Positions 16,530 through 55,972 of a stretch of DNA of 64,000 bases are shown piece by piece. Where the stretch lies: NCBI RefSeq assembly GCF_026163565.1, contig NZ_JAPDKN010000022.1:62001-126000 (forward strand), read 5' to 3'. The notes under the pieces were generated by a model. It made no database searches. It saw only the letters and a program-made list of their open reading frames with translations, and had not been told where the DNA came from. A program made the translations under genes and the position numbers. Numbering within the stretch: the stretch's first letter is position 1; the number at the start of each line of letters is the position of its first letter. This stretch comes from Chryseobacterium sp. YIM B08800. GTDB lineage: Bacteria; Bacteroidota; Bacteroidia; Flavobacteriales; Weeksellaceae.

Positions 16530-17504
16530 CTAATCTTTCAGATTTTTTACAATTTTCCCTGAATCAGTAATCAACAAATATTGATATTCAGGGAATTTTT
16601 TTATTAACTTCAAACCTTCCTTTTTTCCTAAAACCATTATTGAAGTACTAAAGCCATTTGCCATTGTTGCATTGGGTCCTACAACGGTAACGCTCGTTAA
16701 TCCGGTTGAAGGATAGCCTGTTTTAGGATTCATAATGTGAGAATATCTTTTGCCGTGAATTTCTGCATATTTCTCATAACTTCCGGAAGTTGTCACGGCA
16801 TTTTCTTTTAAATAGAGAACTTCAGCAATTTTATCATCTTTAAAAGGATTATTAATTCCAATTGCCCAAGGTTTTCCATCGGGTTGAGTTCCCCAAGTTG
16901 AAATATCGCCCGAAGCATTGATAATTCCTGCTTTTACTCCAAAACTTTTCATCAATTCTCTGGTTTTATCTGCTGCATAACCCTTTCCTATCGATCCGAA
17001 ACCTATTTTCATTCCTTTGTTTTTCAAAAAAATAGTAGAATTGTTTTCATCTAAAATAATATTTTGATAGCCAACATTTTTTACAGAATTTTTTATAGAT
17101 TCTTCAGACGGTAATTCATTCATAGAATCATCAAACTTCCAGATTTTATCCATCGCAACGATGCTTATGTCGAAAGCTCCGTCAGTCAATTTAGAAAAAT
17201 AAATTCCTTTTTCTGTTAAAGCAAAAACTTCGGGATCAACTTTTAAAGGCTTTATTCCTGCATTTCTGTTAACTTCCGAGATCTGAGTTTCCGGTTTCCA
17301 TTCTGAAATTAAATTTTCAATTCTCGTAATTTCTTCTATAGATTTATCAATGTTTTTTTCTGCCGAAAGAGAATCTTTATCTACCAAAGTAATTTCAAAT
17401 TTACTTCCCATTAAAGTAACCAATCTGCTTCTTTCAACTTGAGCAAACATTGATGAAGAAAGTAAAATCAAAAATAATTGGAAGAAATTTTTCAGGCTTT
17501 TCAT
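16530..17504 (-). CDS. apbE: FAD:protein FMN transferase (ApbE)
   Basis: This exported enzyme transfers FMN from FAD to a Thr or Ser of target proteins. The start at 17504 (MKSLKNFFQLFLILLSSSMF) gives a clear signal peptide; a longer frame starting at 17525 would add seven residues inside the neighbouring gene. Visible family motifs are the FGSIGKGYAADKTRELM segment, NASGDISTWG, AVTTSGSYEKY and HIMNPKTGYP. The length of 324 residues is normal. It is the last gene of a four-gene operon with a PepSY-flavodoxin reductase, a DUF2271 protein and an ankyrin protein, and its likely substrate is the DUF2271 protein or the reductase. Confidence 0.93.
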   Translation of the reverse strand: MKSLKNFFQLFLILLSSSMFAQVERSRLVTLMGSKFEITLVDKDSLSAEKNIDKSIEEITRIENLISEWKPETQISEVNRNAGIKPLKVDPEVFALTEKGIYFSKLTDGAFDISIVAMDKIWKFDDSMNELPSEESIKNSVKNVGYQNIILDENNSTIFLKNKGMKIGFGSIGKGYAADKTRELMKSFGVKAGIINASGDISTWGTQPDGKPWAIGINNPFKDDKIAEVLYLKENAVTTSGSYEKYAEIHGKRYSHIMNPKTGYPSTGLTSVTVVGPNATMANGFSTSIMVLGKKEGLKLIKKFPEYQYLLITDSGKIVKNLKD

Positions 17505-17515
17505 GTGCTTTAAAA

Positions 17516-19711
17516 TTAATAACAATCGGTTAAAATTTGTCCGTTTGCTTTGTAATTTTCGTAATCTTTATTTTTTAAAGCACACAGTTTTCTTAAAGTA
17601 TCTTCCACATCATGTTGCATTTTTAGTGCACCACAAATCATGATGAAAGCTCCGTTTTCCAATGAATTGGCAAACAATTCAGCATCTCTTTCAACCAGAT
17701 CCATTACATATTGAGAATTTTCTTCACGAGAAAAAGCTAAACTGAAAGAACTTAATTTTCCTTTTTGGATATTTTCATGAGCGAAATATTCATAATTTAC
17801 AGTCAATTCATTTGATTTTCTGAAACCACAATACAAATGAGTTTTTGTTTTTCCGGTTTGCTCCTCAATCATTCCTAGAAATGGTGCAATTCCGGTTCCA
17901 TTGGCAATCATAATTACTTCAGAAGCTTTTTTAGGAAAATGGAATTCTGAATTTTTAATAATCCTGGCTTTTATTTCCTGATTTTCTTTTAAACGATGCA
18001 AAAACCCTGATCCGAGACCATTTTCATGAAGTTTTACAACCAATTGAATTGCTCCATTCACTTTTCCGATAGAATAGAATCTCTCTTTATGATCATTCTC
18101 AGGGTAAATCGCAAGTAAATCTCCCGATTTAAATTTTACTAATGAATTTGGTTTTAAAATTACTTTAAAAGTTGTCACTTCATCCACGATTTCACTTCTT
18201 CCGATAACTTTCATTTTCTTTAAAGACGGAACTTTTTCGCTGTATAAAGATGGTGCAGTTGCCAAAGGAATCATGGTTTCATAGCTCCATTTCTTCACCC
18301 ATTCTGTAAATTCTGCGGCTGATTTATCGTTGACTGTAAAAAGTTCAAGATGAGAGTCTGCCCAGTTTTGTTCGGATAATAATTGGTTAACTTCAATTGC
18401 AAAACCGCAAAAATCTTCGTAAGATTTAGAACCAAAACCAACTACAGAATATTTAATCTTTTGATTTTGAGGAAATTCTTTTAAAAGCTTTTTAAAGTTG
18501 GAAGCATTGGTTGGAGCTTCACCTAAACCATAAGTTGAAGTAAAGATGATAAATTGCTCTGCTTTAGGATATAATTTGTATTGATTAAGCTCTGTGATAA
18601 ATGATTTTTTTCCGTCTGATAAAAGTTGAGAATGAATTTTATTGGCAAAACCTAAAGTCGAGCCGTTTTCTGAACCTACAAAGATCACAATCTCTGCATT
18701 TTCAGCTTTGTATTTATTCTTGATTTTATTTCTGGTTCGTTTAAAAGTAATGACAAAACCTGAATAAATAAACATCAAGATCCCAATAGAAGAAAGCCCT
18801 AAAACGATTGACCAAAAAACACTTCCACGACCTGTATGAAAGGTTAAACTTAGGTTTTCATAAATAAGGGTCAACGGATATTTTTCCTCCTTTACAATTT
18901 CACCGTTGATTTGGTTGACGGTAATTTCTCTGTCTTTTAGTTTTAAAACAAAAAATTCTTCAGCATCATCTTCAATAAAAGGAAATTCTATTTTCTTGAC
19001 TTTACTGAGTTTTGTTTCCTTAAAAATAGGGAAGTCTGCTAATTTTATCTGAGTTTCAGAATTGGTGATTTTATGAGCAATCTTTTCATTTTTTCCTTTT
19101 GGTATCAATTCAAAACGATGAAGGAAAAGATAAGTTCCTGTTACAGAAACGACTAAAATTGGAATTAATAAAATTCTTCCTGAAACAACATGCAAATATT
19201 GCGAGAAAAAGTCTTTCTTGATATTGTCGAAAAAATGTCTAATCCCATTTTGTCTTTTGATAATCAGAATAAGCCCTGAAATACTGATGATCATTAATAG
19301 AAAAGAAACAACTCCAACTGCAAATCTTCCGGTTTCTTTTAAAAATAAAGAACGGTGCAGCGAAGTTATCCAATTGATAAATTTACTTTTTTCAACAGGT
19401 TTTCCTAAGATTTTTCCGGTTGTAGGATCGATGTATGCTTTGATGTTTTCACCATTATCGTCTAAACCTTCCAAGGTTACAAACTGATTGTGATCAACAC
19501 TGATCTCCGTAATTTCCGGAAAAACCTTGCGCAGTTCCGGTAAAGACTGGGCAAGGTTTATGTTACTGAAATCGTCAACTCGATAAGGTTGAACTTTTTC
19601 CTGTGCAGCATCGTAAGCTAAAATAATTCCTGTGGTAGAAGCTACGATCAAAAATAGGAATGTAAGTATTGCTAAAGTTAAATGGGCATACCTCCAAATC
19701 GATAAGGTCAT
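17516..19711 (-). CDS. PepSY-domain membrane flavoprotein reductase (flavodoxin plus FAD/NADPH domains)
   Basis: A 731-residue fusion. The N-terminal part has four membrane helices (about 12-34, 131-151, 180-198, 300-322) with PepSY_TM character and conserved His residues near the helices (H10, H119, H174, H292) that could bind heme b. A flavodoxin domain fills about 340-475 (VGSENGSTLGFA, then TSTYGLGEAP), followed by a ferredoxin-reductase-like module with the FAD motif RFYSIG (545-549 region) and the NADPH motif ANGTGIAPF (603-611). Cytoplasmic NADPH electrons would pass through FAD and FMN to the membrane domain and out to the periplasm. Similar proteins are annotated as sulfite reductase flavoprotein or ferric reductase. 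It ends 12 bases before apbE's annotated start region and starts 12 bases after the DUF2271 gene. Confidence 0.9.
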   Translation of the reverse strand: MTLSIWRYAHLTLAILTFLFLIVASTTGIILAYDAAQEKVQPYRVDDFSNINLAQSLPELRKVFPEITEISVDHNQFVTLEGLDDNGENIKAYIDPTTGKILGKPVEKSKFINWITSLHRSLFLKETGRFAVGVVSFLLMIISISGLILIIKRQNGIRHFFDNIKKDFFSQYLHVVSGRILLIPILVVSVTGTYLFLHRFELIPKGKNEKIAHKITNSETQIKLADFPIFKETKLSKVKKIEFPFIEDDAEEFFVLKLKDREITVNQINGEIVKEEKYPLTLIYENLSLTFHTGRGSVFWSIVLGLSSIGILMFIYSGFVITFKRTRNKIKNKYKAENAEIVIFVGSENGSTLGFANKIHSQLLSDGKKSFITELNQYKLYPKAEQFIIFTSTYGLGEAPTNASNFKKLLKEFPQNQKIKYSVVGFGSKSYEDFCGFAIEVNQLLSEQNWADSHLELFTVNDKSAAEFTEWVKKWSYETMIPLATAPSLYSEKVPSLKKMKVIGRSEIVDEVTTFKVILKPNSLVKFKSGDLLAIYPENDHKERFYSIGKVNGAIQLVVKLHENGLGSGFLHRLKENQEIKARIIKNSEFHFPKKASEVIMIANGTGIAPFLGMIEEQTGKTKTHLYCGFRKSNELTVNYEYFAHENIQKGKLSSFSLAFSREENSQYVMDLVERDAELFANSLENGAFIMICGALKMQHDVEDTLRKLCALKNKDYENYKANGQILTDCY

Positions 19712-19723
19712 TTTTGGATTTTT

Positions 19724-20206
19724 TTATAACTTATTAAGTTTTACATATCGAATGTAACCTTTTCCTTCTGTTTTTGCTGTAATACCTTCAGTTGTAAAAG
19801 GTAGTTCTACATCTGAAACGTTGTATTTTTTATCTTCAACAGCAGTTTCAAAACGTACTTTGTAACCTTTGTTCAGATATTTATCTTCAATAGAAAAAGT
19901 AGAGATACTTCTGTCTCCATCTGCTACAGAGGCTCCTGTAATTGCATTTAATTTTACTGGTTTTTTACTCTGAAATTTGTGCCATTCTTTTAATGTATCA
20001 TGCCATTTTGTATCAGGACCCATCACATAAAGCGTCTTTTCATAAGCACCTTTTGGGTTAATTAAAGAAACTACAACATAAGCACCTTCACCGCCATAGC
20101 TGGTCAACTGAAGCATACATTTATATTTTGAAGCCTGTGCATTGGCAAAACCTGCACAAAATAAGGTCATTAAAATTCCTAAAGCCTGAATTTTAAAATA
20201 TTTCAT
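19724..20206 (-). CDS. DUF2271 periplasmic protein with candidate flavinylation site
   Basis: A 160-residue secreted protein with a signal peptide (cleavage near FANA-QA, residue 24). The remainder is a small beta-rich DUF2271 domain. Residues 87-93 read NAITGAS, closely resembling the D-x-[ST]-GA-[TS] acceptor motif to which ApbE attaches FMN in NqrC, RnfG and FMN_bind proteins; S93 would be the acceptor. ApbE is encoded two genes downstream and a PepSY reductase next door, so this protein is a plausible flavinylated periplasmic electron carrier. Seen: motif and operon. Known: such DUF2271, PepSY and ApbE associations have been described. Inferred: that this residue is modified. Confidence 0.85.
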   Translation of the reverse strand: MKYFKIQALGILMTLFCAGFANAQASKYKCMLQLTSYGGEGAYVVVSLINPKGAYEKTLYVMGPDTKWHDTLKEWHKFQSKKPVKLNAITGASVADGDRSISTFSIEDKYLNKGYKVRFETAVEDKKYNVSDVELPFTTEGITAKTEGKGYIRYVKLNKL

Positions 20207-20212
20207 AGTATT

Positions 20213-21691
20213 TTATTTTAAAAAGTCAATTGATACGTTATTATTTTTTAAGCTTTCATTTTCTGAAGCAAGATCGTAAGCAGTTTCGTCAAATTCTGTT
20301 TTGATGGTCTTATTGGCACCCAAAGAAACCAGATATTTTAAAATGGTATCATCTTTTGCAACCAAAGCTGCTTTTTGAAGAGCAGTCATACTTTCTTTGT
20401 TAAGAGAGTTCACATCAATTTTTAGATCGCTTAATTTTTTCAGAAGATCCAAATCATTTTTTGCAATCGCTAGATGGAGTAGTGTATTACCATCTTTTTG
20501 TGAAGCAGTAACATTTACATTATTTGATTGAAGAATATTTAATTTTTCTGAAAATTCATCAGAACCTCTTTGCGGACCAGGTCTGTAAGACTGAATTAAA
20601 TAATATGCTAAATTATTTCCTTTTGCATCAACAATTTTAGCATCAGCTTTATTTGAAATTAAAAATTTAACAATCTCTGCAGAACCACTTTGGATAGCCT
20701 GAGTTAAGGCAGACTCTCCATTAGAATTTACAGCATTGATGTTTTGGGTTTTTGCTGCAATTGCTTTTACATTTTCAATATCTTTTCCGCTTGAAGCAAT
20801 TATTAAAGCATTATTTCCTTCTTTGTCGGTTTTATTCGCATCAACTCCTTTGCCGATTAAATAATCAATAATTTCTTTTTGACCATTTTTTTTAGCAATG
20901 ATCTGTAAAGCATTGGCACCATTTGCATTTACAGCAGAAGGATTTAACTTTACTTCATCAATTAAATATTGATAAACAGGAAGTGTATTCGTAACTGCTC
21001 TTGTTCCTGTTGCAGCATTGACCAAAGCTTTATCCGAAGCTTTTACACCCTGATTTTTTAATGATTTTAAAAGCTCAATATTTCCGAAGCTTGCCGCATA
21101 ATCAAAAGCAGTTGCTCCGGTGTCATCTACATCCTTTATAGAAAGACCTTTTGAAGTGAAAAGTTTTTGTAAAGAACCATCTTTGTCGTTTCCAATCGCC
21201 AATAGCAAAATATTGGCTCCGTTTTTATATTTGTGTTTCGGATTTACACCAGCTTTGAAGAATGTTTCGTACACTTTTGGATCATTTAAACCAAACATTG
21301 CAGCAAAAGCAAGAGGCGTTAAACCTTTTGTATCTAATTTATTAACGTCAGAACCTTTAGAAATAAAATATTCAATGATTTCAGGATTTCCAGCCATTGC
21401 AGCCCAGTGAAGATAAATTCTACCATCATGAGTAAGCTTGTCTACTGCATTTCCTTTTTGCTCTAAAAGAAATTTTACCGTTTCCAGAGGAGCTTTATTG
21501 GTAAGGGCAAGAGAAACAGGATCGAAAGTACTTCCATTAAATTCAGAAGGACTGTTTCCATTGGATATTTCTTGCTTTACTTTTTCTACATTAGGTTTAG
21601 ATTTCCAAAAATCTGCCTGTAATAAAGTGTTTTTTTGAGCACTGATTATTACAGAAAATAATAATAGAGCAGAATATAATATCTTTTTCAT
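20213..21691 (-). CDS. Exported ankyrin-repeat protein
   Basis: A 492-residue protein with a signal peptide (MKKILYSALLLFSVIISAQ) followed by about ten to twelve ankyrin repeats that fill the rest of the chain, recognisable as units such as DGRIYLHWAAMAGNPEIIEYF, KGLTPLAFAAMFG and DGNTLLHLAIAKNDLDLLKKL. It should be periplasmic and act by protein binding. It is the first gene of the operon with the DUF2271, PepSY-reductase and ApbE genes (gaps of 6 and 12 bases), which suggests a scaffold or inhibitor role for that redox system, though no catalytic function is visible. Confidence 0.9.
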   Translation of the reverse strand: MKKILYSALLLFSVIISAQKNTLLQADFWKSKPNVEKVKQEISNGNSPSEFNGSTFDPVSLALTNKAPLETVKFLLEQKGNAVDKLTHDGRIYLHWAAMAGNPEIIEYFISKGSDVNKLDTKGLTPLAFAAMFGLNDPKVYETFFKAGVNPKHKYKNGANILLLAIGNDKDGSLQKLFTSKGLSIKDVDDTGATAFDYAASFGNIELLKSLKNQGVKASDKALVNAATGTRAVTNTLPVYQYLIDEVKLNPSAVNANGANALQIIAKKNGQKEIIDYLIGKGVDANKTDKEGNNALIIASSGKDIENVKAIAAKTQNINAVNSNGESALTQAIQSGSAEIVKFLISNKADAKIVDAKGNNLAYYLIQSYRPGPQRGSDEFSEKLNILQSNNVNVTASQKDGNTLLHLAIAKNDLDLLKKLSDLKIDVNSLNKESMTALQKAALVAKDDTILKYLVSLGANKTIKTEFDETAYDLASENESLKNNNVSIDFLK

Positions 21692-21882
21692 TGTTATTTT
21701 TATTTATTCTAAATACTGAACGCAAAATTAGTGTTTCCTAACGAAGCTGAAAAGGAATCTGTATAGAAATTTGAGCTTTAATTGTTGATTATTATCATTA
21801 AATGAATAAAACCAGGAAGCCTTAAAATAGTTTATGCGTTAGGTCATAAAAAATTATAGCGAAAGTTTATAATTTTGAATGT

Positions 21883-24314: not shown

Positions 24315-25604
24315 TTATTCTTTTACTGCTTTTTTATAAGTCTCCAAAGCTCTTTTTCTTGCAACAGTATGTTCCACGATTGGTGTTTTTACGGCGTATT
24401 TCTCAGGATTCCATTGAGTAATATATTTTAAATCTTTATCAAATTTTTTAGTTTGTTCACTCGGATTAAATATTCTGAAATAAGGCGCAGCATCGCAACC
24501 ACAACCTGCTGCCCATTGCCAGTTTCCATTGTTTGAAGAAAGCTCGTAGTCTAAAAGTTTTTCTGCAAAATAAGCTTCGCCCCATCTCCAATCGATGAGA
24601 AGATGTTTGGTTAAAAAACTGGCGACAATCATTCTTACCCGATTATGCATAAATCCGGTCTCATTGAGCTGTCGCATTCCTGCATCTACAATTGGATAGC
24701 CTGTTTTTCCTTCACACCAGAGTTTAAATTCGTCTTCATTATTTCGCCATTTAATGTTTTCATATTTTTCTTTAAAACATTTTGTAACAACTTTTGGAAA
24801 ATGATACAAGACCTGCATAAAAAATTCTCTCCAAATTAATTCATTCAGCCACGTCTCGTTATGTTCTGAAGCATATTTCACACATTTTCTGATTGAAATT
24901 GTACCAAATCGTAAAGCAATTCCCAATCGTGTCGTCTGATCTAAAGCCGGAAAATCTCTGTTTTTGTCATAAGATTCTATAATTTTTTTATCTAAAACAG
25001 GTTCAACGAAAACCATATCCGTTTTTTCAAAACCAATTTCTTTCAAAGTATGAATATTCTTAGTTTTAAATGAATAAAAATTTTTAAAACTAATTTGTGT
25101 TGAATGAATTTCAGTTTGATGAAATTTTTCTTTCCATTTTTTTGAAAATGGCGTGTAAACCGTATAAGGCAAACCATCGTTTTTTACAATTTCATTTTTT
25201 TCAAAGATGACCTGATCTTTAAAATCTTTAAAATTGATCTTGTTTTTATGGAGAAAATCTGAAATTTCCTGATCGCGTTTTATGGCATTTGGTTGATAAT
25301 CGCGGTTGCAGAAAACAGTTTCAACATCAAATTCGTTGATAATTTCTTTAAAAATTTCGAGTGGTTTTCCGTGATAGGTTTTAATTCCTGATTGGTGTTT
25401 TTTTAATTCTTCATTAATTCCTTCTAAAGCCTGATGAATATAATCAACTCTTCGGTCTGACTTATTTTCAAGCTGATCTAAAATTTCGGTATCAAATATA
25501 AAAATTGGCAGTACTTTCTGGTCTGATTGTAATGCAGCATTAAGAGCGGTATTATCAGAAAGCCTCAAATCTCTTCGAAACCAGAATATATTAATTTTGT
25601 TCAT
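24315..25604 (-). CDS. phr: Cryptochrome/deoxyribodipyrimidine photolyase (class I CPD)
   Basis: A 429-residue flavoprotein that repairs cyclobutane pyrimidine dimers with blue or near-UV light. The N-terminal Rossmann domain that binds the antenna starts with INIFWFRRDLRLSDNTAL; the FAD-binding helical domain contains NELIWREFFMQVLY, GYPIVDAGMRQLNETGFMHN, WRWGEAYFAE and SSNNGNWQWAAGCGCDAAPY. The Asn and Trp residues needed for CPD repair are present. It is the last gene of the carotenoid operon and its start overlaps the lycopene cyclase gene by 14 bases, so photoprotection and photorepair are coexpressed under the MarR regulator at the head of the operon. Confidence 0.95.
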   Translation of the reverse strand: MNKINIFWFRRDLRLSDNTALNAALQSDQKVLPIFIFDTEILDQLENKSDRRVDYIHQALEGINEELKKHQSGIKTYHGKPLEIFKEIINEFDVETVFCNRDYQPNAIKRDQEISDFLHKNKINFKDFKDQVIFEKNEIVKNDGLPYTVYTPFSKKWKEKFHQTEIHSTQISFKNFYSFKTKNIHTLKEIGFEKTDMVFVEPVLDKKIIESYDKNRDFPALDQTTRLGIALRFGTISIRKCVKYASEHNETWLNELIWREFFMQVLYHFPKVVTKCFKEKYENIKWRNNEDEFKLWCEGKTGYPIVDAGMRQLNETGFMHNRVRMIVASFLTKHLLIDWRWGEAYFAEKLLDYELSSNNGNWQWAAGCGCDAAPYFRIFNPSEQTKKFDKDLKYITQWNPEKYAVKTPIVEHTVARKRALETYKKAVKE

Positions 25605-26283
25605 CTTTTTTAAATTTATGAAAGAAGAAAAGATTCCACAGAATCATTTCGTAACCATAGACTGTATCTTCAACAGGAATCGTTAAAATTCTGAAACCTA
25701 TAAAATCTTCCGGGTTGTAATTAACAATAGGAGAATCGAGTCCGGTTCCGGTGAGAATTCCGTTGACAGCTAAAAATCCGGGCATTAAGACCAAATAAAT
25801 GAATGATGCTTTTCCAATCCATTTTACTTTTAAAACAAAATAGAGTACCATTAAAGTGATTGCAGCTGTAAGAAAAGTAATAAAAGAATATATTTTATCT
25901 CTAAATAGAATAGCTAAAATCAGGCAAAAAATAATTGAAATAATTACAAAAGCTTTTTCAACAGATGGTTTCCAATTTAGTTTAAAAAATTTATCTAAAC
26001 AGAAATAGGTAAATACACATGAAAATGGAATGCAGATAAAAAACAATAGTTCCTCAATCGGAAGTCCGAAAAGTCGTTTGCCAATTAAATATTTATCTTT
26101 AAACCACCAAACTCCATTTGCGGTGAACCAAACATCCCATGCAATAAAAAATAGAGCAACAATAATTGAAGAAAGCAAAAAAGCTTTAAAATGTCTGTGA
26201 AATTTAATTTTCGGATGAAAAGAAAATATAAAACAGATAATTATTGTAAAAAAATTAATCGCTAAATACGTGTATTGCAACAT
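25591..26283 (-). CDS. Lycopene cyclase domain protein (CrtYcd type)
   Basis: A 230-residue protein with seven predicted membrane helices carrying two lycopene-cyclase-domain halves, similar to the fused CrtYc/CrtYd cyclases of Flavobacteriia and Actinobacteria. Recognisable parts are GLPIEELLFFICIPFSCVFTYF and the C-terminal PVEDTVYGYEMILWNLF, both with the conserved PxExxxF-type pattern. It should cyclise the ends of lycopene to beta-carotene in the inner membrane. It lies between crtZ and phr; its last 14 bases overlap phr. Confidence 0.93.
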   Translation of the reverse strand: MLQYTYLAINFFTIIICFIFSFHPKIKFHRHFKAFLLSSIIVALFFIAWDVWFTANGVWWFKDKYLIGKRLFGLPIEELLFFICIPFSCVFTYFCLDKFFKLNWKPSVEKAFVIISIIFCLILAILFRDKIYSFITFLTAAITLMVLYFVLKVKWIGKASFIYLVLMPGFLAVNGILTGTGLDSPIVNYNPEDFIGFRILTIPVEDTVYGYEMILWNLFFFHKFKKDEQN

Positions 26284-26742
26284 TTACTGTTTATTTTTAT
26301 TAAAATACATTTTAAAAAATCTCACAGGAACCCATAGAAAGCCAAAGCATTCTCCTTGTTCTTTTCCTGTATGCTTGTGATGCTGTTTGTGACCTCTTCG
26401 AATAGCCAGCAAATAAGGATTTTTTGTGTTCTTTAAAATATTGAAACGCTGATGAATAAAAATATCATGTACAAAAAAATAAGCCATTCCGTAGATCGTT
26501 ATTCCAAGAGCGATATAGAAGTAAATATTGAAATCATTTATCGTTCCATAGTACATTAATGCAATAGTTGGAATTGCAAAAATGGCGAAGAAATAATCAT
26601 TTCTTTCCATAGGTCCTTCGTTGCTGTGATCGTGATGATCGCGGTGAAGCGTCCACAAAAAACCATGCATAATGTATTTGTGAACTAACCAGGTAATTCC
26701 TTCCATCGTAAAAAATGTAGCTACAACAATTAAAAAATTCAT
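26284..26742 (-). CDS. crtZ: Beta-carotene hydroxylase (fatty-acid hydroxylase family)
   Basis: A 152-residue di-iron membrane hydroxylase. His boxes are visible as HKYIMHGFLWTLHRDHHD, HDIFIHQRF and HKQHHKH, the classical CrtZ arrangement. It should hydroxylate the beta-ionone rings of beta-carotene to zeaxanthin. It abuts the lycopene cyclase gene with no gap and follows the SRPBCC gene after one base, so the order in the operon is crtI, crtB, SRPBCC, crtZ, cyclase. No GGPP synthase gene is in the cluster. Confidence 0.95.
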   Translation of the reverse strand: MNFLIVVATFFTMEGITWLVHKYIMHGFLWTLHRDHHDHSNEGPMERNDYFFAIFAIPTIALMYYGTINDFNIYFYIALGITIYGMAYFFVHDIFIHQRFNILKNTKNPYLLAIRRGHKQHHKHTGKEQGECFGFLWVPVRFFKMYFNKNKQ

Positions 26743-26743
26743 G

Positions 26744-27205
26744 CTATTTTTTATTAAATGTTTCTTCTAAAATTTTAAATCGGTAATCGAAAATATGTTC
26801 CAATTTTTTCTTTACCATTACGCTGTGTGCAATTTCTCCTAAAAAGCCGAAAGGCAATTCGTAACTTATAGTATCCATCATCAAAACACCTTTATCATTT
26901 ATAATAAATTCATGAAAATGATTCCATAGTTTGAAAGGTCCTTTTTTCTGAAAGTCTGTGAAGCTTTTCTGAAAATTAACTTCCGTAATTTCGGTTTGCC
27001 AGTTTAGTTTAATTCCCAAAAGAGGCGAAACGTAATAATCAATCAACATTCCTTCATAGATTTCGTCATCAGAAAGCTGTGTTCTTACTACAAAATTCAT
27101 GTCTTTCGGGGTGATTTCCGAAAGATTATTTGCCGAAGAGAAAAATTTCCAGGCAGTTTTTATATCGCAGTTAAGTTGTTGTTGACGTTTAAGCTGGTGT
27201 ACCAT
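26744..27205 (-). CDS. SRPBCC-family protein in the carotenoid operon
   Basis: A 153-residue START/Bet v 1-like protein. It starts near MVHQLKRQQQLNCDIKTAWK and keeps the SRPBCC pattern of a long final helix after a seven-stranded sheet (GPFKLWNHFHEFIINDKG, SVMVKKKLEHIFDYRFKIL). Members of this group are often called cell-division inhibitor-like, an inherited annotation without support. The position between crtB and crtZ suggests a role with hydrophobic carotenoid intermediates, for example carrying or presenting them to membrane enzymes; that is an inference from position. No catalytic motif is visible. Confidence 0.85.
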   Translation of the reverse strand: MVHQLKRQQQLNCDIKTAWKFFSSANNLSEITPKDMNFVVRTQLSDDEIYEGMLIDYYVSPLLGIKLNWQTEITEVNFQKSFTDFQKKGPFKLWNHFHEFIINDKGVLMMDTISYELPFGFLGEIAHSVMVKKKLEHIFDYRFKILEETFNKK

Positions 27206-27221
27206 TTTTTTAATTTATATT

Positions 27222-28058
27222 TTATAAAAAAGACATTTTGTATTGCACATAGCTGCTCATCATTAAAGAAAATTTTCTACCGTTTGATATTCTGATTCTT
27301 TGGTTGATGATCTTATTGGCAGAGGTTTTTTTTATTTTTCTGAAAAGAGAAATATAGTATCGATAAGCCAGATAAACTCCAAATCTTGAAGAATTTGGAA
27401 GTTTTCTGATACCTTCAAAGGCTTCATTAAATTCATCGAAAATTTCTTTTTCAATTTGAGACTTTACAACATTATCAAAGTAAGAAATATCGACATTCGG
27501 AAAATAAGTGCGTCCCAAAATCTGATAATCATCTTTCATATCACGTAGAAAGTTTACTTTCTGAAATGCAGAGCCCAATTTCATCGCAGAAGGTTTCAGT
27601 AGATTGTATTTTTCTTTATTTCCGTCAACGAAAATATGAAGGCACATTAAGCCGACAACTTCTGCAGAACCGAGAATATATTCTTTATAAAGTTCAGAGT
27701 CATAATCGATTTTCTGTAAATCCATTTCCATACTTTTAAGAAACTGATTAATCAGCTCTACATCGATCTCATATCGGTGAATCGTCTCCTGAAACGCCTG
27801 CAAGATTGGGTTTAAAGAAATTTTTTCGTCTAAAGCCTGGGTGGTTTGCTCACGAAATCTTGCCAAAAGAGTAGTGCGGTCAAAACCATGAAAGCTGTCG
27901 ACAATTTCATCAGCTAACCTTACATATCCGTAGATGGCGTAAATGGAATTTCTGATCTTTGGTGAAAGTGCCAAAATTCCCAAAGAAAAACTCGTGCTGT
28001 ATTGTTTTGTGGTCTGTTTACTGATCTTATAAGAAAGTTCATCGAAAAGTTTTTTCAT
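27222..28058 (-). CDS. crtB: Phytoene synthase
   Basis: A 278-residue trans-isoprenyl diphosphate synthase of the squalene/phytoene type. Two Asp-rich motifs are present: LADEIVDSFHG and FLRDMKDDYQILGRTYFP, the second being the most diagnostic. It should condense two GGPP to phytoene in the cytoplasm at the membrane. It starts nine bases after the crtI stop and is followed by the SRPBCC gene. The length fits the family. Confidence 0.95.
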   Translation of the reverse strand: MKKLFDELSYKISKQTTKQYSTSFSLGILALSPKIRNSIYAIYGYVRLADEIVDSFHGFDRTTLLARFREQTTQALDEKISLNPILQAFQETIHRYEIDVELINQFLKSMEMDLQKIDYDSELYKEYILGSAEVVGLMCLHIFVDGNKEKYNLLKPSAMKLGSAFQKVNFLRDMKDDYQILGRTYFPNVDISYFDNVVKSQIEKEIFDEFNEAFEGIRKLPNSSRFGVYLAYRYYISLFRKIKKTSANKIINQRIRISNGRKFSLMMSSYVQYKMSFL

Positions 28059-28067
28059 ATTTTTGGG

Positions 28068-29534
28068 TTATTTGGTGGCTTCGGTTGCGGCTATTTTTCC
28101 GGATATAATCGAGGGCGGAACTCCCGGTCCGGGAACGGTGAGTTGCCCTGTATAAAAAAGATTTTTTACTTTTTTATTTCTCAGTGACGGTTTCAGAACT
28201 GCGGTCTGATTCAGCGTGTTGGCCAAACCATAAGCATTTCCTTGGTATGCATTGTAATCGTTTTTGAAATCACTAATGCAATAGCTTTTTTTATAGTCGA
28301 TTTTTGATAAAAGATTTAATGATTTGGTGTGTTTTTCAAGCCTTTCAATCATTTCGAGGAAATATTTTTCTCTGATCTCTTCGTTATCTTCAATTCCTAT
28401 TGCGATTGGCATCAAAAGAAATACATTTTCGCAATTTTCGGGAGCTACATTTTTATCTGTTTTTGATGGACAACAGCTATAAAATAAAGGCTTTGTTGGC
28501 CATTTTTTATCTTCGTAAATTTCAGAAGTATGAAGCTCTAAATCATTTTCAAAAAATAAAGTATGATGTTTCAGATTTTGAATTTTTTCTTTAAATCCTA
28601 AATAATAAATAAGACAGGATGGTGCGAAAGTTTTCTTTTCCCAATAATCTTCGCTGTAATTTTGATATTCTTCCTGAAGTAAATTCTGTTCTGTATGATG
28701 ATAATCAGACGATGCAATTACGCTATCAAACTTAATTTCTGAACCGTTGACAACAATTGATTGCGCTTTGCTATCTTTAATTTTAATTTCTTCAACATTT
28801 GAATTTAAATGAAACTGAGCGCCTTGGTCTTTGGCAATTTCAGACATGGCTTCAATGACTTTATAAAAACCTCCCATCGGATACCAAGTTCCCAATTTAT
28901 AACCTCCATAATTCATCAAACTGTACAAAGCCGGAATATCTTTTGGAGCAGCCCCGAGAAAAATAACCGGAAATTCCATCAGCATAATCAGTTTGGGATG
29001 TGAAAAATATTTTCTTACAAAACGATGAAAATTAGATAATAAATCAAGCTTTAAAGCACTTTTTGCAATTTTTGGAGAAACAAATTCAAACCATGAATGA
29101 CAAGGTTTTGTGACGAAATCTTTCATCCCGACTTCATATTTGTACTTTGCGTCTTCCATGAACTCATCCAGCTTTTTTGCTGCTCCTTTTTCAATAATTT
29201 CAAAAAGATCTCTCATTTCAGAATAATCTTTCGGAACAGCCATAATTCCGTCAGAAAAAACCATTTCGAATTGAGGATTTAACGAAATCAGTTCGTAATA
29301 ATCAGAAGTTTTTTTATTAAATGCATTGAAAAAATCTTCAATAATATCGGGCATCCAATACCAACTTGGGCCCATATCAAAAACATAACCATTATCGGAG
29401 GTAAATTGTCTGGCTCTTCCTCCCAAACTGCTGTTTTTTTCAAAAACGTGAACTTCATGACCAGCTTGTGCAGCATAAGCAGCAGCAGATAATCCTGAAA
29501 ATCCCGAACCGATAATTGCTATTTTTTTAATCAT
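28068..29534 (-). CDS. crtI: Phytoene desaturase
   Basis: A 488-residue FAD-dependent CrtI-type desaturase/isomerase. The N-terminal GxGxxG nucleotide fold (AIIGSGFSGLSAAAYAAQAG) with FEKNSSLGGRAR, and the C-terminal FYTGQLTVPGPGVPPSIISG signature, define the family. It should turn phytoene into lycopene by four desaturations. It lies two bases downstream of the MarR gene and nine upstream of crtB. The pathway in this operon therefore leads from phytoene to zeaxanthin. Confidence 0.96.
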   Translation of the reverse strand: MIKKIAIIGSGFSGLSAAAYAAQAGHEVHVFEKNSSLGGRARQFTSDNGYVFDMGPSWYWMPDIIEDFFNAFNKKTSDYYELISLNPQFEMVFSDGIMAVPKDYSEMRDLFEIIEKGAAKKLDEFMEDAKYKYEVGMKDFVTKPCHSWFEFVSPKIAKSALKLDLLSNFHRFVRKYFSHPKLIMLMEFPVIFLGAAPKDIPALYSLMNYGGYKLGTWYPMGGFYKVIEAMSEIAKDQGAQFHLNSNVEEIKIKDSKAQSIVVNGSEIKFDSVIASSDYHHTEQNLLQEEYQNYSEDYWEKKTFAPSCLIYYLGFKEKIQNLKHHTLFFENDLELHTSEIYEDKKWPTKPLFYSCCPSKTDKNVAPENCENVFLLMPIAIGIEDNEEIREKYFLEMIERLEKHTKSLNLLSKIDYKKSYCISDFKNDYNAYQGNAYGLANTLNQTAVLKPSLRNKKVKNLFYTGQLTVPGPGVPPSIISGKIAATEATK

Positions 29535-53194: not shown

Positions 53195-55180
53195 ATGGAC
53201 GATTCTTTTGCAATAAAGGATGCTTTGACAATAGCAAGCCCTTTTATAAAAAGTGTTGTAGACACTTTTGTAACTCCTAAACTTGAAAAATTTAGAAATA
53301 GATTAAATGATGAAAAAAATATAAATGCATTGCCTGTAGAATCAAATTTTACAGAGTATTTTCATAGGACATATAAAAGATTGATGGTAGTAAATACTTT
53401 GGTTTTTAATAACTCACAAAGATTTTTAGATGATATTTATGTTCCTTTGACTATCGAGTGTAAAAGTGAAAGAAAAATAAGGTTAAAAATAAAAGGTTTT
53501 CCTGAAAAACTCTCAAATGATTATTCTAATATTCTGATAACAGATACTGCGGGTATGGGCAAATCAACTTTAATGAAAACAATTTTTATTGATTGCATTA
53601 ATCGCCAGCTGGGTATTCCTATATTCATTGAATTGAGACGCTTGTCTAAAGATAAAACTTTAATTGATGAAATTATTGAACAATTAAATTCGATTGATAA
53701 AAACTTTGACAAAGAATTACTTTACGAACTATTGGCTGATGGCGAATTTATATTCATATTAGATGGCTATGATGAAATTACGCTTAAAGATAGAGAAGTG
53801 GTTACAACTGATATTCAGGATTTTATTAATAAAGCAAGTAACAATAAATATTTTATCACTTCTAGGCCAGAAAAGGCATTATTAAGTTTTGGCAGTTTTA
53901 GAGAGTTTTACATAAATCCACTAATTAAAAAAGAAGCATATGAACTACTGAGAAAATATGATAAACAAGGTCATATTTCATCGATGCTTATTAAGAAATT
54001 AGAAGAAGAATACTTACAAAATATTGAGGAGTTTTTAGTGAACCCATTATTAGTTTCATTACTTTTTACAGCTTTTGAACATAAGCAGTCAATACCTTTT
54101 AAAAAGCATTTATTTTATCGTCAAGTTTACGATGCGAATTTTGAAAATCATGATTTAACTAAAGGCGATTCTTATATACATAAAAAGTATAGTAATTTGG
54201 AGATAGATGATTTCCATAGAGTATTACGGCATATTGGTTTTTCATGTTTAAAATCTCAAAAAATAGAGTTTACGAAAGATGAAATATTGAAACTTATATC
54301 AGAAAGTAAGGTATTTTGTGTTGGACTTGAGTTTACAGAATCCAACTTTCTTTCAGATATATTAAAAACAGTTCCTTTATTTAGTGAAGATGGAAATTAT
54401 TATAAATGGTCACATAAATCTCTGCAAGAATATTTTGCGGCTCAATTTATTTTTCTTGACGCTAAAAAGAATCAATCTAAAATTATTGATTTAATTTATA
54501 ATCATGCTGACTTAGATAAGTTTATAAATGTTCTTGATTTATATTATGATATGGATTATAAGACATTTAGATACAGGATTGAGTTTAAAATTTTAGAGGA
54601 ATATCATAATCATCTTCAAAATTATTACCAAAATTTTAAAAGTGATTTAAATCTTCAATTAATTCCGCTACGAGCAGAAATGACTTTTTTAAACGAGACT
54701 GTCATTTTTTATTTGGATGAAGATATAGACGAAGATGAAGAGGCACATAATGATAATATGACAGATATGATAACTCGTATTTCCGAACAAAATAATCTTG
54801 ACGATATATTAGTTAGTGAGATAAGAATTTTTAAATTACAGAAATTAAATTTATTTCAATATGTACACCCAAAAAATAAATTATTTTACATATTCGAGAA
54901 TAAAAAAAATCCAATTGTGAAAAAATTTAGTAGTGAAAAATATGATTTTTCTTCTAATTTTCCATTTGAATTTAATGAGGAAATTAAATTTGCTAGGATT
55001 GATTATGTATATAATGATGGTGTTAATAATGAAAAAAATTTTAGAGAAATAAATAGTTTAATTTCAGACTATGTGGATGAAAGTATAATTATAAATCATT
55101 CAGAGGCAATTAAAAGGTTTAATGAAATAAAGAATGAGATAGATAAAGGTAGTGACGAATTTTTATTGGAGGGTCTTTAA
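53195..55180 (+). CDS. NACHT-domain NTPase (bacterial NLR-like, candidate antiphage protein)
   Basis: A 661-residue STAND NTPase. Residues 1-105 form a helical N-terminal region; the NACHT domain follows with Walker A DTAGMGKST (117-125), an IELRRL strand, Walker B FIFILDGYDE (185-194), the TSRP sensor (222-225), the NPLL winged-helix motif (283-286) and WSHKSLQEYFAAQ (405-417). The last 240 residues are AT-rich, charged and without leucine-rich repeats. It is a stand-alone gene between two terminators with no effector domain that I recognise, matching single-gene bacterial NACHT defence proteins. The A+T content is higher than in its neighbours, suggesting acquisition by transfer. Confidence 0.88.
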   Translation: MDDSFAIKDALTIASPFIKSVVDTFVTPKLEKFRNRLNDEKNINALPVESNFTEYFHRTYKRLMVVNTLVFNNSQRFLDDIYVPLTIECKSERKIRLKIKGFPEKLSNDYSNILITDTAGMGKSTLMKTIFIDCINRQLGIPIFIELRRLSKDKTLIDEIIEQLNSIDKNFDKELLYELLADGEFIFILDGYDEITLKDREVVTTDIQDFINKASNNKYFITSRPEKALLSFGSFREFYINPLIKKEAYELLRKYDKQGHISSMLIKKLEEEYLQNIEEFLVNPLLVSLLFTAFEHKQSIPFKKHLFYRQVYDANFENHDLTKGDSYIHKKYSNLEIDDFHRVLRHIGFSCLKSQKIEFTKDEILKLISESKVFCVGLEFTESNFLSDILKTVPLFSEDGNYYKWSHKSLQEYFAAQFIFLDAKKNQSKIIDLIYNHADLDKFINVLDLYYDMDYKTFRYRIEFKILEEYHNHLQNYYQNFKSDLNLQLIPLRAEMTFLNETVIFYLDEDIDEDEEAHNDNMTDMITRISEQNNLDDILVSEIRIFKLQKLNLFQYVHPKNKLFYIFENKKNPIVKKFSSEKYDFSSNFPFEFNEEIKFARIDYVYNDGVNNEKNFREINSLISDYVDESIIINHSEAIKRFNEIKNEIDKGSDEFLLEGL

Positions 55181-55231: not shown

Positions 55232-55972
55232 CTAAGGCCTCTTCGCATCCTCACTTCCCATTCTTCTTGAAAGAACCACATTCGAGAAATAATTCCTTCC
55301 ATTATTGATAATGGTAAGAATATCTTTGTAATAGGTATCTTCTTTCACAGAAGCCATTGCAGCGATATAGTTGGTCATTGTTTTGTAATCTGAAGCCAGT
55401 GTTTTGCGGAGAGCTTTAACATCTGCTACTACTTTTTGAGAAGTTTTAAAAGACCTTTGTGCAAAAAGTTGATTGAATGCTATGTTGGAATCTGAAAGAT
55501 GATTCACAAACTTTTCAATTCCTAAAGTCGTTACAGCATTGCTAAATTCAGGAGACTGTAATCTTCCAATCAGCGAATTGAGCCTATTGGTTTCAGATTC
55601 GTAAGAATCATCTTCTACATCTTTATATTCTGAAAGCAGAAGCTGTAAAAGATTGTAAGCATCGGCTTCAACTTGTGTTTTTGCATTCCTGTAAGGTTTT
55701 AAGGAAGCCCTCAGTGAAAAAATGTCGGAATCTCTCACTTTGTCGAGTTTAGCAATCTGCTCCGATTCTTCACTGGCTCTGATTTGGTTTAGAGCCGAAT
55801 TATAAACAGGAACTTGCATCTGCAAAGCATCGTAAAGTTTTTTAAAATCTAAATCGACACTAATGTCTAAAGTTGTTGTACTGAAATCTTCAAAGAATCT
55901 TACAATCAACTGTCCAAATTCTGCGTTGTGTAAAGCCGCAATATCAAGCGGAATCAATTTAATTTTACTCAT
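55232..55972 (-). CDS. DUF6261-family protein
   Basis: A 246-residue soluble, mostly helical protein of the DUF6261 family, restricted to Bacteroidota and of unknown function. The start IKLIPLDIAALHNAEFGQLI and the internal LRASLKPYRNAKTQVEADAY are typical. It has several long amphipathic helices, so it may bind another protein or form a bundle. Its upstream region carries two 29-base direct repeats. It converges with the NACHT gene, with only a hairpin between them. Confidence 0.88.
   Translation of the reverse strand: MSKIKLIPLDIAALHNAEFGQLIVRFFEDFSTTTLDISVDLDFKKLYDALQMQVPVYNSALNQIRASEESEQIAKLDKVRDSDIFSLRASLKPYRNAKTQVEADAYNLLQLLLSEYKDVEDDSYESETNRLNSLIGRLQSPEFSNAVTTLGIEKFVNHLSDSNIAFNQLFAQRSFKTSQKVVADVKALRKTLASDYKTMTNYIAAMASVKEDTYYKDILTIINNGRNYFSNVVLSRRMGSEDAKRP

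Follow-up and report, generated by a model that had tools for sequence, protein, structure and literature searches.

An ankyrin-repeat protein as a fixed partner of a predicted flavinylated PepSY reductase in Bacteroidota, with iron as its likely acceptor

The closest described relatives of the operon treated here are the PepSY-like flavinylation clusters (Meheust et al. 2021, PMC8238504). In such clusters, a PepSY_TM protein with an NAD-binding domain occurs together with a motif-bearing DUF2271 protein and with ApbE, a flavin transferase. Among 3220 of them, DUF2271 was found in 2833 and a secreted DUF4198 protein in 1500. A DUF2271 protein of another species has been shown to be a substrate of ApbE that carries flavin mononucleotide (FMN) covalently, and a tie of the clusters to iron has been proposed in the same paper. 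A related operon lies in a stretch of 64,000 nucleotides (64 kb) from Chryseobacterium sp. YIM B08800 (contig NZ_JAPDKN010000022.1, positions 62,001 to 126,000), referred to below as the window. It codes for an ankyrin-repeat protein (ANK), a DUF2271 protein, a PepSY_TM membrane reductase (RED) and ApbE.

Other systems offer partial parallels. The XusABC system of Bacteroides includes a TonB transporter, the siderophore-binding DUF4374 protein XusB and a PepSY inner-membrane protein (PMC13142918). Reduction of ferri-siderophores is the known or proposed function of the PepSY proteins XusC, FoxB and HiuB (PMC13142918, PMC12424826), and the PepSY/FoxB structure 7ABW has two heme sites (PMC12424826). 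In Caulobacter, the locus CCNA_03155-03159 combines PepSY, DUF2271 and DUF4198 proteins with a flavin-dependent reductase; it is a Fur target and is needed under iron chelation with EDTA (ethylenediaminetetraacetate) (PMC12004947).

The window shares with the PepSY-like clusters a PepSY_TM domain (PF03929, E = 5.5e-32) in RED, an ApbE and a DUF2271 protein with the motif [ST]GA[ST]. It differs from them by the presence of ANK, the absence of DUF4198 and an extra flavodoxin domain in RED. The word “ankyrin” does not occur in the main text of PMC8238504. DUF4198 (PF10670) has no match in the source genome. A search of 22 genomes (20 of the ANK type and 2 of a fusion type described below) found it at no DUF2271 locus, although nine of them have a match elsewhere. 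XusABC resembles the arrangement in part of the relatives, which have a TonB receptor, a DUF4374-related lipoprotein and a PepSY inner-membrane protein. In contrast, RED has an NAD(P)H module of its own, joined to it by fusion, and is accompanied by DUF2271, ApbE and ANK, and in the window neither a TonB receptor nor a DUF4374-like lipoprotein lies near the operon. FoxB and HiuB share the PepSY membrane domain, and the conserved membrane histidines of RED would fit two hemes; however, RED matches 7ABW only weakly in sequence (E = 0.31), carries extra cytosolic reductase domains and is paired with a predicted flavinylated periplasmic carrier. The Caulobacter locus has the same PepSY and DUF2271 components and is likewise linked to iron, whereas it carries DUF4198, and an ankyrin protein is not named in the passages of PMC12004947 considered. 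The chain is of a published kind, in agreement with the associations noted in the first-pass annotation of this DNA. What is added is iron as the likely acceptor and a fixed ankyrin partner.

Among the Bacteroidota sampled, ANK belongs to the core of the module. The less biased evidence comes from a survey that started from DUF2271, not from ANK, and applied a family cut-off to 395 Bacteroidota genomes. It gave 34 places in 33 genomes. Twenty-seven of these have ANK, DUF2271 and RED together, four are fusions of ApbE with DUF2271, one is a lone DUF2271 and one has no match to a window protein. The remaining place, L115, has DUF2271 and RED and begins 118 bases from the end of its contig. Thus, wherever the contig leaves room, ANK is present at every locus with DUF2271 and RED (27/27), and ApbE at 21 of them. 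In the family of the window, DUF2271 matches occur in 47 of 148 genomes (46 besides the source, one of them weak); at the 20 loci fetched from these 46, ANK, DUF2271 and RED are always together, with ApbE at 19. Within the genus, nine of 173 genomes have DUF2271, ANK (E <= 1e-60) is found in exactly these nine, and ApbE lies within about 4 kb of DUF2271 in all of them. A further set of 59 loci (L002-L060, the named loci) was picked by similarity to ANK. Here DUF2271 stands beside ANK in 59/59, RED in 58/59 and ApbE in 54/59, and three of the five loci without ApbE run off the contig. The sets partly overlap (for example L127 with L002 and L141 with L005), so that the counts are not independent.

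Since this gene order recurs across Bacteroidota, the arrangement is not due to chance. The first-pass annotation had described a tight four-gene operon on the minus strand, from 21691 to 16530, and open reading frames (ORFs), intergenic spacings of 6, 12 and 11 bases and Pfam names all agree with it. It had also stated that a separation of apbE from DUF2271 in relatives would speak against a flavinylation chain; this was checked and is not seen in the genus, the family or the phylum sample of ANK-type loci. The ankyrin protein, listed there without a role, proves to be the most constant partner in the operon. In one genome, that of Flavobacterium bizetiae (L008:247-11988), two ANK-DUF2271 pairs flank a TonB receptor and a lipoprotein; within the stretch covered, RED and ApbE follow the first pair only.

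ANK appears to be exported. It has a signal-peptide-like start ending near ISAQ, and the starts of DUF2271 and ApbE also look like signal peptides ending in AQ (all by eye). Its Pfam match is to Ank_2 (E = 1.6e-58). An AlphaFold model, made with an alignment of 43 of the 59 relatives (near-duplicates and L055 omitted), is an ankyrin solenoid with a predicted local distance difference test (pLDDT) score of 92.9. The best structural matches in the PDB are ankyrins: a designed ankyrin protein (Z 27.3 over 441 residues, root-mean-square deviation 16.4) and Espin1 (Z 25.8 over 315 residues, deviation 3.1). ANK is 94% identical to its counterpart in C. balustinum, and mean identity is 57% across 52 diverse rows, with invariant positions clustered around residues 465-478. 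Ankyrin solenoids bind proteins, and docking is therefore the plain reading of its role. From its constancy and fold, ANK would be a periplasmic docking scaffold. In the searchable literature, no paper was found that pairs ankyrin with DUF2271. Matches to “ankyrin repeat” with “flavinylat” were unrelated as judged by titles and the starts of abstracts, and the passages considered of PMC9478572 and PMC10434189 make no mention of ankyrin.

The carrier of the chain would be the DUF2271 protein (Pfam E = 1.4e-36). Its acceptor motif is ITGAS at residues 89-93, and Ser93 is the predicted FMN acceptor. When 101 loci were scanned, 93 of the 97 stand-alone DUF2271 proteins had [ST]GA[ST], a count that excludes the fusions with ApbE. 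The source genome, rated 100% complete, has a single ApbE match, which is the operon copy (E = 4.3e-86), and no match to FMN_bind. The closest PDB sequence to this ApbE is TM1553 (1vrm). An ApbE also occurs elsewhere in all eight searched genomes whose DUF2271 locus has none nearby (G107, G312, G088, G304, G182, G158, G254 and G599), and overall it is present in 18/18 and 5/5 genomes searched. The model of DUF2271 is beta-rich (pLDDT 77). A PDB sequence search for its fold gave a best E of 1.2, and Foldseek gave nothing below 0.001, the top two hits being C2 domains. Flavinylation of the window protein is predicted from sequence.

RED carries its PepSY_TM domain at residues 9-325, followed by flavodoxin (Flavodoxin_1, E = 8.1e-16), flavin adenine dinucleotide (FAD) and NAD(P) domains (NAD_binding_1, E = 1.3e-9). 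Hydrophobic segments lie near residues 13-31, 133-151, 173-198 and 297-315. Close to them are His10, His119, His174 and His292, which are invariant in 57/57 full-length sequences. Conservation was read from 57 of 59 rows for RED and from 53 of 55 for ApbE, partial rows being dropped. Among PDB sequences, the cytosolic part is closest to cytochrome P450 reductases, then to sulfite reductase flavoprotein and others. Searched against the PDB, the membrane-domain profile matches 7ABW alone, with the His119 region aligned. The invariant histidines and this weak alignment make a two-heme path through the membrane domain plausible. The chain proposed in the first-pass annotation, from NADPH through RED to a flavinylated DUF2271, fits the sequence tests: the acceptor motif, the RED histidines, the single ApbE and the lack of FMN_bind.

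Some loci depart from this pattern. At L098, L114 and L146 there is no ApbE in the locus, and VGET or SGET replaces TGAS with the last Thr/Ser position retained; these may be altered flavinylation sites. A second architecture in Bacteroidota has ApbE fused to DUF2271 (L109:7281-9423, L111, L118 and L121). ANK was not found at any of the four fusion loci. The fusion is followed in L121 by a PepSY_TM_like_2 membrane protein (Pfam) and in the other three by lookalikes (by eye), and the acceptor motif is loosely retained as TSAT, AGAT, TSAT and SSAT. ApbE is found in 65 of the 173 congeners, 56 of which have no DUF2271. The one of these examined (G408, L161:4758-7591) has a cluster of a thioredoxin-like protein, ApbE and DUF3570. 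DUF3570 is another published ApbE substrate (PMC8238504).

A first indication of the acceptor comes from the region upstream of ANK, which holds the 19-mer ATTTAGAATAAATAAAAAT. It was scored with a Fur matrix built from 11 boxes of Riemerella anatipestifer; these boxes are predicted, and fragments from four of the promoters were tested for Fur binding by gel shift (PMC5609570). The 19-mer scores 16.1 bits, a value reached by one of 1000 dinucleotide shuffles of its upstream region. Within the 64 kb, the ANK site is the sole exact occurrence of its 12-base core; with at most one mismatch there are 6 matches against 4.9 expected, which is chance level. In all nine congeneric loci the 19-mer is identical and is separated from the start codon by 4 or 5 bases, and the sequence farther upstream diverges in two of them.

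The element also recurs outside the genus. After 115 operon heads had been thinned to 88 non-redundant ones (heads with fewer than 150 upstream bases were excluded), a site of at least 12 bits was found in 58, compared with 3.0% of dinucleotide shuffles. In a second comparison, 72 of 95 heads had such a site, whereas among 968 other upstream regions the share was 4.8%. The exact 8-mer TTTAGAAT of the R. anatipestifer-type box stands before ANK in 28 of 95 cases, compared with 16 of 969 other upstream regions, and the wider recurrence emerges with the matrix, not with the exact 8-mer. Fur may control the operon through this Fur-box-like element. Another candidate, an E. coli-like Fur box at about 21785-21809, was dropped; it is partly kept in congeners, and the R. 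anatipestifer-type box is nearer to the start codon and recurrent. The sequence TAATTTTG may be a promoter element. It resembles TAnnTTTG, the Bacteroidota-type consensus, and TAA[AT]TTTG is retained in the upstream alignment of congeners. The first-pass annotation had covered the four genes correctly and had omitted these two upstream elements.

A second indication is the company that the operon keeps in part of its relatives. A TonB receptor and a lipoprotein of about 445 residues stand beside it in 17 of 101 loci, directly upstream in 13. The same pair accompanies 4 of 20 family loci, with one case of divergent orientation. The queries for both proteins were chosen from loci of this same set after neighbours had been clustered. 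A profile of the lipoprotein aligns with three DUF4374 proteins over 372 columns (hhalign probability 98.7). Pfam gave no match above cut-off in the four members of one scan or in the first member of another, its DUF4374 model matched one of 17 members (E = 0.0045), and the best E against the PDB was 0.59. As these matches are weak, the likeness to XusB comes from the one profile comparison.

The third indication is expression. In R. anatipestifer CH-1, the genes B739_0173-0177 are annotated as the TonB receptor CirA, a hypothetical protein, Ankyrin, a predicted periplasmic protein and nitric oxide synthase. They are induced when iron is limited with 2,2'-dipyridyl, with log2 values of 3.31, 3.64, 2.41, 3.06 and 1.05, respectively (PMC5429918). 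The order TonB receptor, lipoprotein, ANK, DUF2271, RED, ApbE is found in three genomes of the window family (L133-L135).

Regulation by Fur-like boxes, the TonB receptor and lipoprotein as neighbours, and expression in R. anatipestifer make iron the likely acceptor. The first-pass annotation had held that the acceptor was not indicated, and comparison with relatives now points to ferric iron. The operon is probably an iron-responsive inner-membrane reductase for periplasmic iron, with ANK as a scaffold. Electrons would pass from NADPH to FAD, to FMN, through two membrane hemes to the FMN on Ser93 of DUF2271, and from there to Fe(III). The Fe(III) substrate would most likely be a ferri-siderophore or another ferric chelate imported by a TonB receptor, and the Fe(II) released would be available to a ferrous transporter. 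ANK would keep the flavinylated carrier close to both the reductase and the iron complex, taking the place that DUF4198 frequently has in the clusters of other bacteria. A more specific claim is that across Bacteroidota ANK is an obligate core part of a flavinylated, NADPH-driven transmembrane ferri-siderophore reductase and docks DUF2271 to the PepSY reductase and to iron complexes. This claim is tentative, a possibility that falls somewhat short of likely.

Several observations weigh against the iron reductase with an ankyrin scaffold. The TonB receptor and lipoprotein are missing near most loci searched, and phmmer finds neither a TonB receptor nor an XusB-like lipoprotein among the 60 ORFs of the window. 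Thirty of the 88 operon heads score below 12 bits for the Fur matrix. The link to CH-1 is one of annotation and gene order; the gene at the RED position is barely induced there, and B739_0178 is absent from the main text of PMC5429918. In strain RA-YM, the ApbE RAYM_04506 is listed as iron-regulated, and its rise is 1.84 in the wild type and 3.37 in a fur mutant (PMC5609570). Since the rise persists in the mutant, something besides Fur would take part in the control in RA-YM, provided that RAYM_04506 corresponds to the ApbE of the operon. The match to FoxB is weak. The exact acceptor motif is missing in 4 of the 97 stand-alone proteins, namely L053 (TSAS), L055 (frame broken), L098 and L114 (both VGET), and in the family set one of 20 lacks it (L146, SGET). 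The scaffold role of ANK is drawn from its constancy and fold. Finally, 164 of 173 congeners have no DUF2271, so the system is accessory. Its flanking genes are mostly common to the window and six of the eight other congeneric loci; those of L125 and L130 differ, and the operon therefore occupies more than one genomic place within the genus.

These points leave room for other explanations. The flavinylated chain may serve another periplasmic acceptor, such as a quinone, oxygen or peroxide, a thiol or methionine-sulfoxide repair enzyme, or copper, in which case iron control would mirror the heme and flavin content of the system. PepSY_TM proteins do have further roles, the title of the CrpH paper pointing to support of a heme-copper oxidoreductase function, and the window operon has no adjoining TonB receptor. 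However, Fur-like boxes span diverse lineages, a TonB receptor and XusB-like lipoprotein adjoin part of the loci, and the genes are induced together with a TonB receptor on iron limitation (PMC5429918). By eye, the recurrent neighbour families include no recognised one related to quinones or sulfoxides. On balance, a different acceptor is unlikely.

Two further explanations concern ANK itself. AnkB is a periplasmic ankyrin tied to catalase in Pseudomonas, and ANK may similarly be an independent protein that protects against Fe(II) and peroxide chemistry outside electron transfer. Periplasmic production of Fe(II) would call for both functions. A catalase-peroxidase-like gene (by eye) is also found about 3.4 kb downstream in 9 of the 59 named loci, which is probably Sphingobacterium synteny. 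However, there is no catalase among the window ORFs beside the operon (ten proteins by Pfam), and ANK tracks DUF2271 and RED without exception in the three surveys (27/27, 20/20 and 9/9), so that this role, too, is improbable. Alternatively, ANK could be a passenger kept by co-inheritance and functionally untied to the chain. Pairwise distances of ANK and DUF2271 correlate with r = 0.89 (52 rows), and other gene pairs with 0.80 to 0.90. Since the other pairs correlate alike, this reflects joint inheritance and not a special bond between ANK and DUF2271; the four genes travel together, so that neighbouring positions within one clade do not count as independent evidence. A mere passenger is nevertheless very unlikely, as ANK, DUF2271 and RED stay intact at the 6 of 27 phylum-sample loci without ApbE, ANK retains many invariant positions, and it was not found at the fusion loci. 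An iron reductase in which ANK is a working part is the preferred explanation.

The features of the operon are listed in the table. For ApbE, the mechanical ORF offers an alternative start at a TTG codon, 21 bases earlier, which overlaps RED.

Table. Genes of the operon and elements upstream of it, in window positions.
Feature	Position	Strand	Description
ANK gene	20213..21691	minus	492 aa; Pfam ankyrin families
DUF2271 gene	19724..20206	minus	160 aa; PF10029, 125.7 bits
RED gene	17516..19711	minus	731 aa; PepSY_TM, flavodoxin and FAD/NAD(P) reductase domains
ApbE gene, FAD:protein FMN transferase	16530..17504	minus	324 aa from ATG; PF02424, 289 bits
Fur-box-like 19-mer ATTTAGAATAAATAAAAAT	21696..21714	minus	ends 4 bases before the ANK start codon
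Possible Bacteroidota-type promoter element TAATTTTG	21723..21730	minus	read from sequence

Elsewhere in the window, positions 25591-29534 hold carotenoid-type genes (lycopene cyclase, squalene/phytoene synthase family and flavin amine oxidoreductase family). A NACHT protein with an SNaCT5 C-terminal domain is encoded at 53195-55180; it is possibly anti-phage and has no PADLOC match. The adjoining gene at 55232-55972 codes for a DUF6261 protein with a weak PADLOC match to CARF_HEPN (20 bits).

The operon bears on two questions: how periplasmic flavinylated carriers gain and deliver electrons, and how iron is released reductively from siderophores in Bacteroidota. Both can be addressed by deleting single genes of this fixed module, which combines a soluble ankyrin with a predicted FMN site, candidate heme ligands and an iron-type box. 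The R. anatipestifer genes annotated as ankyrin, predicted periplasmic protein and nitric oxide synthase would gain a function. If the docking role is true, ANK would be the first known case of an ankyrin protein that takes part in electron transfer outside the cytosol.

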